DNA of 55,124 nucleotides. It comes from a virus. Made by a program: the position numbers and the translations under genes. Below, one piece after another: positions 3,028 to 37,680 of this stretch (positions within the stretch are counted from its first letter, which is position 1; each line of letters starts with the position of its first letter). The stretch covers positions 1 to 55,124 of IMG/VR virus record IMGVR_UViG_3300030104_000130. One strand, written 5' to 3'. A model generated the notes under the pieces. That model did no database searches, had not been told where the DNA came from, and saw only the letters and a list, made by a program, of their open reading frames with translations.

Positions 3028-6000
3028 TTAAGTTTGTGCTAAGTTCTGTACTCTTCCTACTTCTTGCCATACAGAGCCATTGTATCTGAATGAGAAGATA
3101 TCTGTTTTGTTAGCTGTTGCTGTAATTGTTGGTGCTGTACTTGCAGCAAATTCAAAAGCTGTATTCCATGCAACAGTTCTTGGAGTTCCTCCTTGAGCTA
3201 TTTCTATGGAAATAATAGCACCTTCAGTATTATTAGTTGGTGCTGAAATTGTAGTGTTTTCTGTTGTAAGATGAAAAGCATTTGATTTTGCAGCAGCATC
3301 CCAAGCTACAGCATTTGAACTAGATGTTAAAGCTTGTTGAGTTACATTAGCTGCAGCAGTTGCTGTAACAGCCGGAGCTGTTGCTGACGTTGCAAAAGTT
3401 ACAGCGTTTTCAATTTTAGCACCTGTAACTTGATCGTCTCCAATGTGTGCAGTATCAATACTACCATCAGTATAATGTTCACTATCAATTGCATCATCGG
3501 CTATTTTAGCACCAGTTACTGCATCAGCAGCTATTTTAGCAGTTGAAACTGAGTTATCACTTGGAGTTCCTATTGCGACTTCTTCAGCATTATAAGCTGT
3601 AATAACTCTACCATTTAAAGGAGCTTCAGATAATGTTAAAGTAGTTCCTGAAACACTATAACTGTTATGTGCTTGGAATACACCATCAATAAAGACCATT
3701 AAGTTATTTTCACTTGATGGAGCTGAAGACAATGTAAAGGCTGTAGTACTATCATCACCTGTAAAGATGTTAGTAGAAAAAGAACCACTTCCTCCTCCAA
3801 TGCTACCCCAAGCATCTGTATAACCTTCAAACTCTCCTGTAGTTGAGTTATATCTAAAATAACCTGCTGCCGGACTTCCCGGTCTTTGTGCTGTTGTACC
3901 TACTGGTATATGTATTGAGTCTGTATTAGAACCTAAGTCTAATGAAACATCCGGAGATGCATTACCAATACCTACACGATTGTTTGAGCTATCAACTTTT
4001 AGAGTTGATGTATCTACAGCAAGGTCTCCAGAAATTGTTAAACTTGATAAAGTTCCAACACTTGTAATATTTGTTTGAGCTGCTGTAGCTATTGTACCTG
4101 TTAAATTATTAACAATTAAATTACCAGCAGCATATCCTGTAGCACTAGTATTTACAGTTGTTGAAGGTACAGTTTGAGTATCACAGAATAATCTAAATGT
4201 ATTATCTGTAGAAGCATCATAATATAATCCAGCATACTTAGTAGTACTAGATTCTACATACTTACCATAAAAACCAAAGTCTGTAGTGTTTCCTGTATTC
4301 TCATCTGTTAAACCTGTAAAATTAGAATCACTAACAACTGAACCTGTTTGTGTAGTTGTACCAGTAACAGTTAGGTTTCCGGCTACACTTAAGTTATTTG
4401 CAATTGTAATATCATTAGCTAACTTGTCACCTGTAACTTGGTCGTCAGCAATATGAACTGTGTCAATTGCACCATCAGCTATTTGAGCTGAATCAATAGC
4501 ATCGTCTGCTATCATAGAATTTACAATGACATCAGAACCTATAACTAAATCTATTGTACCATCACCATCTTCGTATGTTGCTGCAATACCTGTTTCAGTA
4601 TTACTTGAAAACATAGCACCAACAGTGTCTTGTACAACTTCTGAAAGGTCTATATTTGCTGTACCATCAAAAGACACACCATGTATAGTTCTTGCAGTTT
4701 CTAAAGCTGTAGCAGTAGCTGCGTTACCTGTAGTACTTTGATTAAGTGTACCAACTGTTAAATCAATTGTACCATCACTATCTTCATATGTAACGGTAAT
4801 ACCTGACTCAGTGTTAGAACTAAACATAGCTCCAACAGTATCTTGAACAACTTCAGTTAAATCTATATTAGCTGTACCGTCAAATGATACTCCATGAATT
4901 GTACGTGCTGTTGCTAATGCTGTAGCTGTTGCCACATTACCAGTTGTTAAAGCTATAGTACCTGCAGTAGAAGGTAAAGTTACAGTTGGATTACCACTAA
5001 AACTAGCATGTGCAGGTGCTTGTAGTCTTAAATAGTGAGCATTATTTGATTCACAATAAAAATCTACATAAGACTGAGTACCACCATTTTTAATTTTAAT
5101 ACCGCCTTGTTGAATAACTACACCATTTGTAGAGCCACCTCCGACTCCAATAGAAGTAGTAATTTCTAATGATGCTGGTAAAACAAAGTCTAATGTATTA
5201 TCTGAATCATCATAAGTTACTGTAATGTTTGTTTCTGTGTTAGAGCTAACCATAGCTCCTACAGTATCACTAATTGTTTCTGCTAGTGTTGTACCGTTCA
5301 CTGTAATTGCATCAGCTTCTAAAGTACCATCAATGTCTACATCTCCTGAAATATCAAGTGTAGCTGCATCTAACTCACCACTAATAGTTATGTTTCTACC
5401 ACCAGTTATATCTTTGTTTGAATCTGTAACAATAGCTTTAGAAGCTTCTACAGTTCCTGCTGTTGAAACATCTACATAGTTAAGTTCTGTTGTAGTGGCT
5501 GTAACACCATCAAGTAAATTTAATTCTGTAGCTGTGCTTGTAACACCATCAAGAATATTTAATTCAGCAGCAGTAGATGTTACTCCGTCTAATATATTTA
5601 GTTCTGCTGCAGTTGATGTAATTGTTGTTCCATTAAAGTCTATTGCATCTAAGTAAGCTACACCATCAATATAAATATCTTTCCATTGTTGTGAAGAACT
5701 ACCTAAATCATAAGTATTATCATCATCAGGAATAATGTTAGAATCAACATCAGCACCAAATACTACGTTATCAGTAGCTGCATCACCCATAGTGATTGTA
5801 CCACCGTTAAAAGTTGTAGTACCAGTTACTGTAAGATTACCTCCAACTGCTACGTTCCCAGTTGTAGTAATAGAATCTATATACGCATCTTTAAAATATA
5901 ATGAGCTTGTACCTAAATCAACATCACTGTCTGTTATAGGAATAACTGCTCCGTCTTGTATTCTTATTTGTTGTACAGGACTACTAGAGACTTCTACATA

Positions 6001-17539: not shown

Positions 17540-17954
17540 ATTCTCCATCTTCAATATCTAGTGGGGCTTTATCCGGCATTAAAAAAATACCACCTGCATT
17601 CATGTTATGTGTTACATCGACTTTATCTACTTTAGTAACACCTACTCTATCTAAAAGAGTCTGTGCTGCTGTAAGCTTATTGTTTGCTTGGATAATAGGT
17701 TTCTTAGAATCCATAATCTCTACAAGCTTAAAAGCTGCTTTAGGTGCTGAGTTTGCTAAAATCTCTTGAGTTATTTCTAGTATCTCAGACTTTAAAGTCT
17801 TTACAACATGATGGTGGTGGCTTTTGTACCCTGCAAGTTCTGCAGCCTTTTTAGCATCACCTTGACAATCAATTAGATGCTCAAGAAAAGACTCTTGTTT
17901 GGGTGTTAGCTCACGTTTTGTTTGGGCACTGTCAATGCTTGGTAATATAGCCAT
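17520..17954 (-). CDS. terS: Terminase small subunit
   Basis: The 144-residue protein has the classic pattern RELTPKQESFLEHLIDCQGD followed by AKKAAELAGY, the DNA-binding helix-turn-helix of small terminases. A helical central region (TLKSEILEITQEILANSAPK) and an acidic C-terminus (DIEDGEYEDISD) for contact with TerL follow. The start at 17954 is chosen because it precedes the motif by about 15 residues and sits seven bases after a perfect -10 box. An open frame runs upstream to 18116 but crosses that promoter. It is the first late gene. Confidence 0.85.
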   Translation of the reverse strand: MAILPSIDSAQTKRELTPKQESFLEHLIDCQGDAKKAAELAGYKSHHHHVVKTLKSEILEITQEILANSAPKAAFKLVEIMDSKKPIIQANNKLTAAQTLLDRVGVTKVDKVDVTHNMNAGGIFLMPDKAPLDIEDGEYEDISD

Positions 17955-17961
17955 GTTCTTT

Positions 17962-17990
17962 ATTATAGCTGCACCTGAGAAATTTGTCAA
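17962..17990 (-). promoter_or_regulatory. Late sigma-70 promoter PL
   Basis: Minus-strand TTGACA (17990-17985), a 17-bp spacer and TATAAT (17967-17962) form a perfect sigma-70 promoter. Upstream is a T/A-rich TTTAAAAGC segment like that before the early promoters. Transcription should start near 17955-17956, essentially at the terS ATG (17954), so the mRNA would be leaderless or nearly so. It is the only convincing promoter seen for the late arm. Confidence 0.85.
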
Positions 17991-18016
17991 GCTTTTAAAG
18001 TTTTTTTCTTTAAGAC

Positions 18017-18045
18017 TTGACAAAAGTGAATTGAGGATGTATAAT
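18017..18045 (+). promoter_or_regulatory. Divergent sigma-70 promoter PR
   Basis: TTGACA at 18017-18022 and TATAAT at 18040-18045 are separated by 17 bp, a perfect consensus. It faces away from PL with 26 bp of T-rich DNA between the two -35 boxes, so the pair could share regulators. Its transcript would begin near 18052 and run through about 900 bases without a gene before reaching 18998. Confidence 0.8.
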
Positions 18046-18873
18046 AACTTTAGTGCCCCCCGGGTTAAAGCATACCTCAGAGCTCCCTGCTCACATGCTA
18101 AAACAACCTCAATCACCCTTCAACTTATCCTCAAAATAATACCTGTGTACTATAAAGATTTTAAAGTCTTTATGTCTCGGGTTGTAAACTAGATATAGAG
18201 TTATCTGGTTAATGGGGTATTTGCTGTAAAATGTATAATCATGCTATAGATATATAGGTATAGGGCTATGGTCTCCTGCCTACCCTTAGAGTTAAGCCCT
18301 ACCAAAACTAACAGCATAGGTGCATTGCAATGTAATCCTAAAACTACAAAGGCTTAAAAGATTATCATTAGTTTCCTAAGTTTAAGTAAAGCAATAGCAA
18401 CCTTGAAGTCTTTGGAGAGTCTTTACTAGAATCAAATCTTTGGCTTGAACTTAGGAAACTTATTAGATTTATAAGTCCACATAATCATCAATGGCTTCAT
18501 TGTTGCCTTTCCAATCCACCTTATCCCTCAGGTTTTCCTAAACTTCCAAGTCAATGCAATGCACTGCGAAAAGTTACAAAGCACTCCCAAGTCACACTCT
18601 GTCAAAGGTTAATATCAACGTCTTCCCCACAACATACTCCCTTTAGTTTAAGAGCATGGAGTGCTAAAGTGTCTAGAATGTTTAGCCCTCTATCAGCTTA
18701 AAGTCCTCGTATTACGGTTAGCGTATCCCTACAACATAAAAATCTCATAGCTGTTGCAAATCTCTTAAATAAACAGGTCGATCCATAAAAACTAACACAA
18801 ACTCTAATAGTTTCAGCTATCTGTAAAGTCTTTAAAATCTACAAGATACTCCTTTTTAACTGGTTTACGAATA
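18046..18873 (+). ncRNA. Candidate large structured noncoding RNA or control region
   Basis: No believable gene lies here on either strand, yet several pairings exceed what short AT-rich stretches usually give. They are 18069-18073 with 18095-18099 enclosing 18080-18083 with 18089-18092; 18261-18267 with 18295-18301 (7 of 7); 18371-18386 with 18444-18459 (15 of 16); 18320-18332 with 18552-18564 (12 of 13), enclosing the previous one; and 18580-18587 with 18658-18665 (8 of 8). Their nesting from one promoter (PR) suggests a long folded RNA. No Rfam class can be assigned by eye. Confidence 0.45.
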
Positions 18874-18967
18874 CATAAAGATTTCAAAGTATCAAGGAGT
18901 ATTAAAAATTTATCCGAAGCCAAGTAAATTTTGAATACTTAAGAGACCTTGACACTTCAAAATCTTT
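18154..18967. repeat. Four copies of an AAAGATTTTAAAG motif
   Basis: The motif occurs at 18154-18166 (+), 18830-18840 (-, partial), 18877-18889 (+, one change) and 18955-18967 (-, one change). The first is part of a near-palindrome at 18153-18172 (two mismatches in 20). The last lies inside the spacer of the promoter at 18949-18977. Spacing is irregular. The motif could be an operator for a regulator or part of RNA stems. Confidence 0.45.
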
Positions 18968-18997
18968 ATGACTTAATGGTATTTTAAGGAGTATCTT
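18843..18997 (+). repeat. Nested inverted repeats sequestering a promoter and ribosome site
   Basis: Three arms nest. The outer one pairs 18843-18854 with 18986-18997 (12 of 12) and contains the AAGGAG ribosome site of the next gene. The middle one pairs 18874-18897 with 18947-18970 (21 of 24). The inner one pairs 18898-18911 with 18926-18939 (13 of 14), with a 14-base loop. A transcript from PR would fold into a long hairpin hiding the ribosome site, whereas one starting at the local promoter (near 18984) would lack the left arms and be free for translation. Confidence 0.75.
18949..18977 (+). promoter_or_regulatory. Probable sigma-70 promoter P0
   Basis: TTGACA at 18949-18954 and CTTAAT at 18972-18977 (four of six matches) are spaced by 17 bp, ahead of the first early gene. 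The start point would be near 18984, leaving a leader of about 14 bases with AAGGAG. The promoter lies in the right arm of the nested inverted repeat. Confidence 0.55.
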
Positions 18998-19180
18998 ATG
19001 ATTTTAATAGACTTTACAAACAACGAAACTATTGAGTTTCCATCAGTTCTTATGGCTCAAATGTTCATTAGAGATTTGACATCTATGGACATTTATGTCG
19101 CAGGAATCCACTGCAGTAATGCAGAGGACTTTAAACCGCTAGAAGACTACATTCTAGCACTTTACCAATCCATAAACTAA
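18998..19180 (+). CDS. First early gene, 60-residue unknown protein
   Basis: AAGGAG six bases before the ATG supports this start. The product MILIDFTNNETIEFPSVLMA and so on is a small mixed alpha/beta protein with acidic character and no recognised domain. As the first gene after the divergent control region it is a candidate for immediate-early host takeover, by position only. It is 12 bp upstream of the next gene and probably co-transcribed with it up to the terminator at 19469. Confidence 0.65.
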   Translation: MILIDFTNNETIEFPSVLMAQMFIRDLTSMDIYVAGIHCSNAEDFKPLEDYILALYQSIN

Positions 19181-19192
19181 AAGGAGTACATT

Positions 19193-19462
19193 ATGGAAAA
19201 TACGTTTGATATTAACAGCTTTGACAAAGAGCAACTTAGCAGTCCAGCAACTTTTAAGCAGTGCAGAGCATTGTCTTACAAGTTTGCAAAAACTGGAGAT
19301 AAAATGAACTGGAAAGTCCACAAGCAAGTCCAAGGTTGCTTATATGGACTAGCCAAAGATAATAAGTTTTCTTTTAAACAAGCCAATGATTTGTTTTCAA
19401 AGAAGACTCTTCCAAAGAAATATAAAGATGCTATTGCTTTATATTTAAAAGAAAACTCTTAA
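19193..19462 (+). CDS. Early 89-residue protein, unknown
   Basis: AAAGGAG precedes the ATG. The product is basic, with 16 or so Lys, and contains SSPATFKQCRALSYKFAKT followed by a Trp-containing helix and FSFKQANDLFSKKTLPKKY, a small helical protein. Similar short proteins occur at the head of early regions in marine podoviruses, without known function. An intrinsic terminator follows seven bases after the stop codon, ending the first early unit. Confidence 0.65.
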   Translation: MENTFDINSFDKEQLSSPATFKQCRALSYKFAKTGDKMNWKVHKQVQGCLYGLAKDNKFSFKQANDLFSKKTLPKKYKDAIALYLKENS

Positions 19463-19468
19463 TCTTTT

Positions 19469-19507
19469 AAGCCTTTGTAATTTAAAACATTGCAAAGGCT
19501 TTTTTTA
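19469..19507 (+). terminator. Intrinsic terminator of the first early unit
   Basis: Arms AAGCCTTTG (19469-19477) and CAAAGGCTT (19493-19501) form a nine-pair stem around a 15-base loop, followed by a run of seven T (19500-19506). This is a standard rho-independent terminator for the unit 18998-19462. Confidence 0.85.
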
Positions 19508-19522
19508 ACTGTTAGTTTTGGT

Positions 19523-19626
19523 AAACTTCTGATCGCTTAAGATTCCTGGTGCATATGTCTTCTTAGCTCTAAGAATCACTAATTCATACCTGAAGCACCA
19601 GTGTTTTAAAAAGCGATCAGAAGTTT
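19523..19626. repeat. Sixteen-base perfect inverted repeat with nested stems
   Basis: AAACTTCTGATCGCTT (19523-19538) is exactly complementary to 19611-19626. Inside, CTGGTGC (19546-19552) pairs perfectly with 19595-19601, and TCTTA (19561-19565) with TAAGA (19570-19574). The whole forms a 104-base rod with internal loops. Five T follow on the plus strand. It may be a small RNA, a strong terminator working in both directions, or a cruciform in the origin region. Confidence 0.75.
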
Positions 19627-19762
19627 TTAACAGGCTTAACTCTAAGATTTTATAATTACCTCGAAGACTCGGTAGCTTTTTATCTTTGCATACGACCATA
19701 GCAAAGAATTAAGTTTAAATAATTTTAAATTTAATTAGCTTTCGAGTTTAAAGTTTAAAATT

Positions 19763-19978: not shown

Positions 19979-20007
19979 TTGACATCTGCTGATCTTGTCG
20001 CTATAAT
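19979..20007 (+). promoter_or_regulatory. Early sigma-70 promoter P1
   Basis: TTGACA 19979-19984, 17-bp spacer, TATAAT 20002-20007. It shares the upstream block TTTAAGTTTTATATGC with P2 and P3. The spacer starts TCTGC as in P2. It drives the gene at 20050. Confidence 0.9.
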
Positions 20008-20049
20008 ACACCCCGACACAGCAACCATGCTTTATTTTAGGAGATAGAT

Positions 20050-20285: not shown

Positions 20286-20314
20286 TTGACATCTGCCGAA
20301 GATGTCGGTATAAT
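20286..20314 (+). promoter_or_regulatory. Early sigma-70 promoter P2
   Basis: TTGACA 20286-20291, 17-bp spacer, TATAAT 20309-20314. The -35 and spacer contain the dyad GACATC-N7-GATGTC (20288-20306), a possible operator. A leader hairpin GCTTG/CAAGC (20321-20338) follows the start point. Confidence 0.9.
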
Positions 20315-20370
20315 TATCGGGCTTGGCAGGGTTCAAGCATTTAAAAATTCATAAACTTAAAGGAGATATT

Positions 20371-37278: not shown

Positions 37279-37680
37279 TTATTTACTTTGCCAATCCTCA
37301 ATGGCTTTTTTTATACTTTCTTCTGCTAACACACTACAATGTAATTTTATAGGTGGTAACTCTAATGAATCTGCTATGTCTTTATCTTTAATTGCCATAG
37401 CTTCTTCAATTGTTTTGCCCTTTAACATATCAACAAACATTGTGCTTGATGCTATTGCTGATCCACAGCCATAAGTTTTAAACTTAACATCATCAATGAT
37501 ATGTCTGTTGCCCTGCAACTTACATTTAATTTGTAATTTCATTACATCTCCACATGCAGGAGCACCTACAAGACCAGTGCCAACATTTAAATCTTTAGGG
37601 TCAAATCTACCTACTGAATATTTATCAGGATTATTTAAAACTCCTTCAAACCTATCTACAACTTTACTTGAGTATGCCAT
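37279..37680 (-). CDS. iscU: IscU-type iron-sulfur cluster scaffold
   Basis: The 133-residue protein is a clear IscU: MAYSSKVVDRFEG, a six-to-eight residue insert, then NVGTGLVGAPACGDVMKLQI (Cys43, Asp45), FKTYGCGSAIASST (Cys72), the HscA-binding LPPIK at 108-112 and LHCSVLAEESIKKAI (His114, Cys115). All three cluster-ligand cysteines and the modulating Asp are kept, so it should be functional. IscU builds [2Fe-2S] clusters with host IscS and hands them on via HscA/HscB. No partner gene is present. Upstream stop and this ATG overlap (TAATG). Confidence 0.93.
   Translation of the reverse strand: MAYSSKVVDRFEGVLNNPDKYSVGRFDPKDLNVGTGLVGAPACGDVMKLQIKCKLQGNRHIIDDVKFKTYGCGSAIASSTMFVDMLKGKTIEEAMAIKDKDIADSLELPPIKLHCSVLAEESIKKAIEDWQSK

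Follow-up and report, generated by a model that had tools for sequence, protein, structure and literature searches.

The window, by which we mean the whole 55,124-bp stretch of an uncultured virus record from a marine-type phage, contains a two-gene early operon preceded by an antisense copy of its own genes that has co-evolved with them. The upstream arm of this fold-back, U (positions 18300–18906, plus strand), is non-coding, and the downstream arm, S (18939–19523, plus strand), runs from the fold-back axis to just beyond an intrinsic terminator and holds genes A and B, both of their ribosome-binding sites and the terminator itself. This architecture and the co-evolution of the two arms are firm. 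Because U and S stay complementary, the predicted transcript would fold back on itself along an imperfect duplex of ~500–550 bp, which would hide the translation signals of genes A and B. Judged from the sequences compared here, we give roughly even odds (about 0.5) to the reading that this is a self-silencing ("latched") operon mRNA, in which the antisense leader would silence its own genes.

The large terminase of the window is nearest to those of pelagiphages HTVC115P, HTVC103P and HTVC104P (65–66% identity, with 85% of the query covered); HMO-2011-type phages are more distant relatives by the same protein. Two divergent sigma70-type promoters, both perfect (TTGACA-17-TATAAT), split the leftward small-terminase and structural genes from the rightward early genes; PL (17962–17990, minus strand) points toward the former, and PR (18017–18045, plus strand) would drive the fold-back transcript. 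Among 23 representatives, chosen to be below 93% identity in S, PR is perfect or has one mismatch, with a 17-nt spacer, in every case and lies at −827 to −1073 relative to the gene A start, and the divergent promoter is perfect or near-perfect in 22 (it was not found in L062). No internal promoter is conserved in this set, promoter-like sites near the axis being only sporadic. A sequence-only reading of this DNA had noticed the perfect promoter and a gene-free region behind it, and both observations hold, with about 950 bp after PR lacking any credible gene. A hidden gene was considered and rejected; there is no consistent open reading frame, U carries indels and has no reading frame for A or B, and tblastn of A and B on the opposite strand gave no match in any locus. 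A tRNA search of the region found none. The unit ends at the intrinsic terminator (19471–19506, plus strand), in which GCCTTTG..CAAAGGC is followed by a T run. Right after it, at 19525–19627, is a long hairpin (AAACTTCTGATCGCTT..AAGCGATCAGAAGTTT) that has no counterpart in the window's U arm and looks inserted. Farther downstream two more perfect TTGACA-17-TATAAT promoters, at about 19979–20008 and 20286–20315, carry related palindromes in their spacers (GACATCTGCTGATCTTGTC and GACATCTGCCGAAGATGTC) that are possibly operators for one regulator. Elsewhere in the genome, positions 37279–37680 (minus strand) encode an IscU/NifU-like protein, as judged by eye from the translation.

A BLAST search of the window against itself finds 18341–18970 as an inverted match to 18874–19483 (E = 2e-73, 71% identity); the arm limits given above come from a gapped alignment, and within the gene part U and S are identical at 80% of aligned positions. 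The plus-strand U segment 18627–18650 (inverted repeat I4) has 83% complementarity to 19173–19196, where gene B has its ribosome-binding site and start, and segment 18822–18854 (I2) has 82% complementarity to 18986–19018, where those of gene A lie. For the plus strand of the U-S stretch in the window the predicted folding energy is −426 kcal/mol (mononucleotide shuffles, −243 ± 11), and 439 of the 454 predicted pairs join U to S; plus-strand RNA is far below its shuffles in all eight genomes folded. Counted from the gene A start, mean pairing stays at ~0.6–0.8 between the axis and about +495, spanning both ribosome-binding sites and both genes without being concentrated at the former; it declines over the terminator's 3' half and is ~0 beyond +540.

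This long-range pairing changes how the region is to be read. The nested local pairs that had been noticed in it are real (18320–18332/18552–18564 and 18367–18386/18444–18463), but they are not evidence for a self-contained structured RNA, because 18300–18872 folded alone is no better than shuffles (z = −1.0; 12 of 100 shuffles equally good); the main pairing partner of U is S, which lies mostly outside the interval then considered. The idea of a giant phage RNA survives in part, in that the predicted promoter-to-terminator transcript is large, conserved, structured and of no Rfam class, and fails in that this RNA is neither self-contained nor wholly non-coding: one side of the duplex consists of two protein-coding genes, of which the other, non-coding side is an inverted copy. 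That no known RNA class could be recognised agrees with an Rfam search of the window, which gave no match at the gathering score. A lax search of 17950–19700 (up to E = 5) returned eight below-threshold matches only, with no GOLLD or ROOL among them, and these eight, which include plant and animal miRNA models, were taken as chance likenesses to long hairpins.

Gene B is encoded by 63 IMG/VR contigs, to which a profile search added a few; these contigs are metagenomic and partly interrelated. The U arm is present in all 67 that have enough sequence to be testable (61/61 and 6/6), with scores of at least 94 versus at most 26 for shuffles, and arms that are ~80% alike in 67 contigs rule out an assembly artefact. 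In 23 of 23 representatives U finds its best match in the S of its own genome, and own matches exceed swapped matches in all 253 pairwise comparisons, the swapped match being near noise at 65–70% S identity. The alignments used for counting pairs maximise U-S matches within each genome and thereby raise the absolute match level; the own-versus-swapped difference is not inflated, because the same alignment procedure served for swapped pairs. Across 156 pairs of close relatives S differs at 3901 sites, and at 2019 of these both genomes retain the U-S match; the odds ratio for U differing where S differs, relative to sites where S is the same, is 17.7, a description given with no P value because the pairs are not independent. 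The match is 0.82 in register and 0.23–0.29 when slid by 1–6 positions. Covariation among relatives had been put forward as the check on any structure here, and the long U-S pairing does covary. U itself is 0.70–0.99 identical between close relatives, which indicates that it is inherited with substitutions, not remade. A simple or decayed pseudogene is ruled out by the match kept in every testable contig and by the uniform preference for the own arm. In the most divergent members an extra palindrome of ~110 bp (77% identity) lies within U (L062:3028–3135 and L063:5329–5436). Cultured phages gave no gene B by tblastn and no DNA match, bacterial genomes gave no relative of gene B, and the fetched parts of HTVC115P, HTVC103P, HTVC104P, HTVC033P, HMO-2011, CRP-235, CRP-3 and ctYwJ313 contain neither the long fold-back nor the leader described next.

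Between PR and U lies a conserved leader of ~170 nt (18143–18314, plus strand; covariance model R1) with three predicted hairpins, of the types TTAACTAG..CTGGTTAA, CTATAGATATATAG and GTGGTCTCCTGCCAC. It has 47 invariant columns in 19 sequences and changes on both sides in 4 of 21 pairs, R1 scores 126 bits in the window, and the window's copy folded alone is no better than shuffles (z = −0.4); its predicted structure rests mainly on sequence conservation. It is absent from Rfam and from the eight named relatives checked, and is a second, apparently undescribed, conserved RNA element, one that marks a swappable early cassette (see below). The other conserved part is the apical domain at the fold-back axis (18872–18972, plus strand), which is a single long hairpin in the window; most relatives have a predicted three-way junction instead, and in an eight-sequence alignment four pairs have changed on both sides. 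RNAalifold found no structure in the full apical set A3, probably due to loop-length variation, and a subset gave the junction. A 17-mer from the apical loop was tried as a probe for other systems, and its extra matches were the same family or unrelated sequence. The apical loop motif of several relatives (for example L036 and L042), CCTCGAAGACTCGG, also occurs downstream of the window's unit at 19659–19672, where 0.01 occurrences with up to 2 mismatches are expected by chance.

Whether complementarity is maintained at the level of RNA or of DNA bears directly on the self-silencing reading. Selection on RNA thermodynamics alone would predict an excess of G-U pairs or favoured changes to G-U, and neither is observed: 177 G-U pairs are found where 178 are expected, and U shows no preference for substitutions that would turn a pair into G-U, A>G being the slowest class. 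The minus-strand RNA folds equally well or better in seven of eight genomes. The lack of G-U enrichment leaves room for a DNA-level or a neutral origin, and in the latter the locus would be an old inverted duplication, made by snap-back replication, whose functionless arms owe their continued likeness to template switching or gene conversion. Such a neutral quasi-palindrome would also suit the fairly even identity along the arm, the near-random spacing of mismatches and the weak clustering of covarying sites (Stouffer z 2.3, 11 pairs), the last of which suits copying of several bases at a time by template switching, a process known to create and maintain hairpins (PMC8794818). It is nevertheless unlikely, given that, in a compact genome, all 67 contigs retain U at almost its full length, that the limits of the arms coincide with the leader and the terminator, that the apical and leader sequences are conserved, and that U is inherited with substitutions. 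The match of the limits to the promoter-terminator unit and the conserved leader and apex are what would favour the RNA level. Since the evidence on RNA and that on copying differ, we treat renewal and retention of complementarity apart; it is probably renewed by DNA template switching and probably retained because of function. Retrons and diversity-generating retroelements carry a reverse transcriptase next to their repeats; the neighbouring proteins scanned include no such enzyme, and U-S mismatches are not restricted to one template base. Two other candidate signals were set aside: an A·C excess seen in some genomes, as a mark of the strand under selection, is mostly explained by base composition, and RNase III avoidance through regularly spaced mismatches was not seen.

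A search with the leader finds further contigs at the same locus, with small terminases 76–100% identical, in which other small genes, A' and B', replace A and B. Homology between A/B and A'/B' was not detected (hhalign E 0.2, shallow alignments), so their likeness is only an analogy. Fold-backs in these other cassettes are short, with roughly 64–117 matched bases, and lie in the 5' UTR or reach the start of A' (L173, L174, L175, L184, L186, L188, L192, L195, L196, L199 and L204); three contigs (L172, L185 and L190) have the leader and no clear fold-back. The long fold-back therefore travels with the A/B cassette, and relatives at this locus include some with no fold-back, some with a short 5' hairpin and some in which the full operon is covered. 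The short apical hairpin, we infer, is probably the older form. In L172, L173, L184, L186, L190 and L195 the small terminase is 85–100% identical to that of the window and a different gene pair stands behind the leader.

These exchanges bear on the possibility that the quasi-palindrome acts as DNA, as a replication origin, a packaging site or a recombination hotspot. It adjoins the small-terminase gene, either strand pairs equally well, and the locus swaps cassettes among phages with nearly identical small terminases, all of which would suit such an element. Yet L172, whose small terminase is 100% identical to the window's over 144 amino acids, has no clear fold-back, a result that speaks against the replication or partition region suggested earlier, and in L173 and L184 the same small terminase goes with a short one. 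The fold-back is thus not essential for replication or packaging, and with arms that fit a promoter-to-terminator unit we consider a DNA-level element very unlikely.

Genes A (18998–19180, plus strand) and B (19193–19462, plus strand) encode 60 and 89 amino acids, respectively. Divergence at the three codon positions is 0.35/0.26/0.45 for A and 0.32/0.25/0.51 for B, by which both look like real proteins. A is predicted to have a small alpha/beta fold (pLDDT 92) and B to be helical (pLDDT 87); neither could be assigned to a Pfam or PHROG family, and among solved structures no relative was found by fold for either protein or by sequence for B. Gene B opens with eight nearly invariant residues (MENTFDIN; 19193–19216) and shows low synonymous change in codons 1–5 (0.16), which suggests an extra constraint there.

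Under the self-silencing reading, transcription of the unit, folding of this kind in vivo and silencing are all inferred, and the course of events, including what opens the duplex, might be as follows. From PR one transcript would be made, comprising the leader, ~600 nt of antisense U, the apical junction, the two-gene S and the terminator. As S leaves the polymerase it would meet U, made just earlier in the same molecule, and the two would zip into the ~500–550-bp duplex with both ribosome-binding sites buried. A and B would be made only if ribosomes load before the zip closes; alternatively, a factor on the leader or the apical junction may hold the duplex open. Spare U RNA could silence the same operon in trans, and complementarity would be kept by purifying selection, aided by template switching in DNA replication. 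Besides the absent G-U excess, the minus-strand folding and the weak clustering of covarying sites, two observations speak against this reading: pairing shows no peak at the ribosome-binding sites, and L172, L185 and L190 carry the leader with no clear fold-back. U could instead act mainly in trans, as an early antisense RNA that silences A and B of a superinfecting sibling, or the duplex could act as a decoy that draws in RNase III or a sensor of dsRNA. That U matches only its own lineage and stands behind PR in a swappable early cassette would suit this, but the phage's own operon would be silenced too, no separate promoter-terminator unit for U is seen, and long perfect helices are neither avoided nor enriched; we regard a role mainly in trans as distinctly unlikely. 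Returning to the self-silencing operon, we tentatively suggest, with somewhat less than even confidence, that it exemplifies a new class of regulatory element in phages, in which a self-complementary operon under a full-length antisense leader is self-silencing and lineage-specific, possibly silences siblings in trans and is renewed by DNA template switching.

No bacterial or phage operon is known to us in which the genes follow a leader that is their full-length, co-evolving antisense, and none with such an antisense leader was found in the open-access literature. If the RNA folds as predicted, its silencing design would resemble eukaryotic hairpin RNAs and need no RNAi proteins, and the dozens of diverged versions are a natural data set on the origin and growth of long hairpins and on the persistence of their complementarity. 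GOLLD and ROOL are giant phage-associated RNAs, and like them this is a very large conserved RNA in a phage-like genome, the 5' half of the unit being non-coding; it differs in that the duplex partner is two coding genes and in having no Rfam match, and U alone folds about as well as shuffles. In type I toxin-antitoxin systems an antisense RNA transcribed from a separate promoter, whether on the opposite strand or at another site, acts on the mRNA of a small hydrophobic toxin. As in hok, long-range pairing may silence an mRNA for small proteins, and U is by its covarying complementarity a putative antisense to such an mRNA; here, however, the pairing is much longer, extending over whole genes, and the antisense is imperfect and shares with the genes its strand, its promoter PR and its predicted transcript. 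A and B show no toxin similarity, having predicted compact alpha/beta and helical folds and no Pfam match. Eukaryotic hairpin-RNA (hpRNA) loci arise from inverted duplications, and both an inverted duplication and a promoter sequence are present here, so that an inverted gene copy would likewise give a long self-complementary RNA specific to the gene; the differences are that this is a phage, for which we know of no RNAi machinery, and that arm and target form one operon. Template-switch-maintained RNA hairpins (PMC8794818) offer a plausible mutational source for the co-changes, although those are stems of RNA genes and these are ~550-bp arms over a protein-coding operon. Nematomorpha mitochondria carry coding palindromes with perfect repeats of up to 284 bp (PMC6649704); there both arms are coding, whereas here one arm is non-coding and the two are ~80% alike, and in both cases long inverted repeats overlap protein-coding sequence and have been retained.
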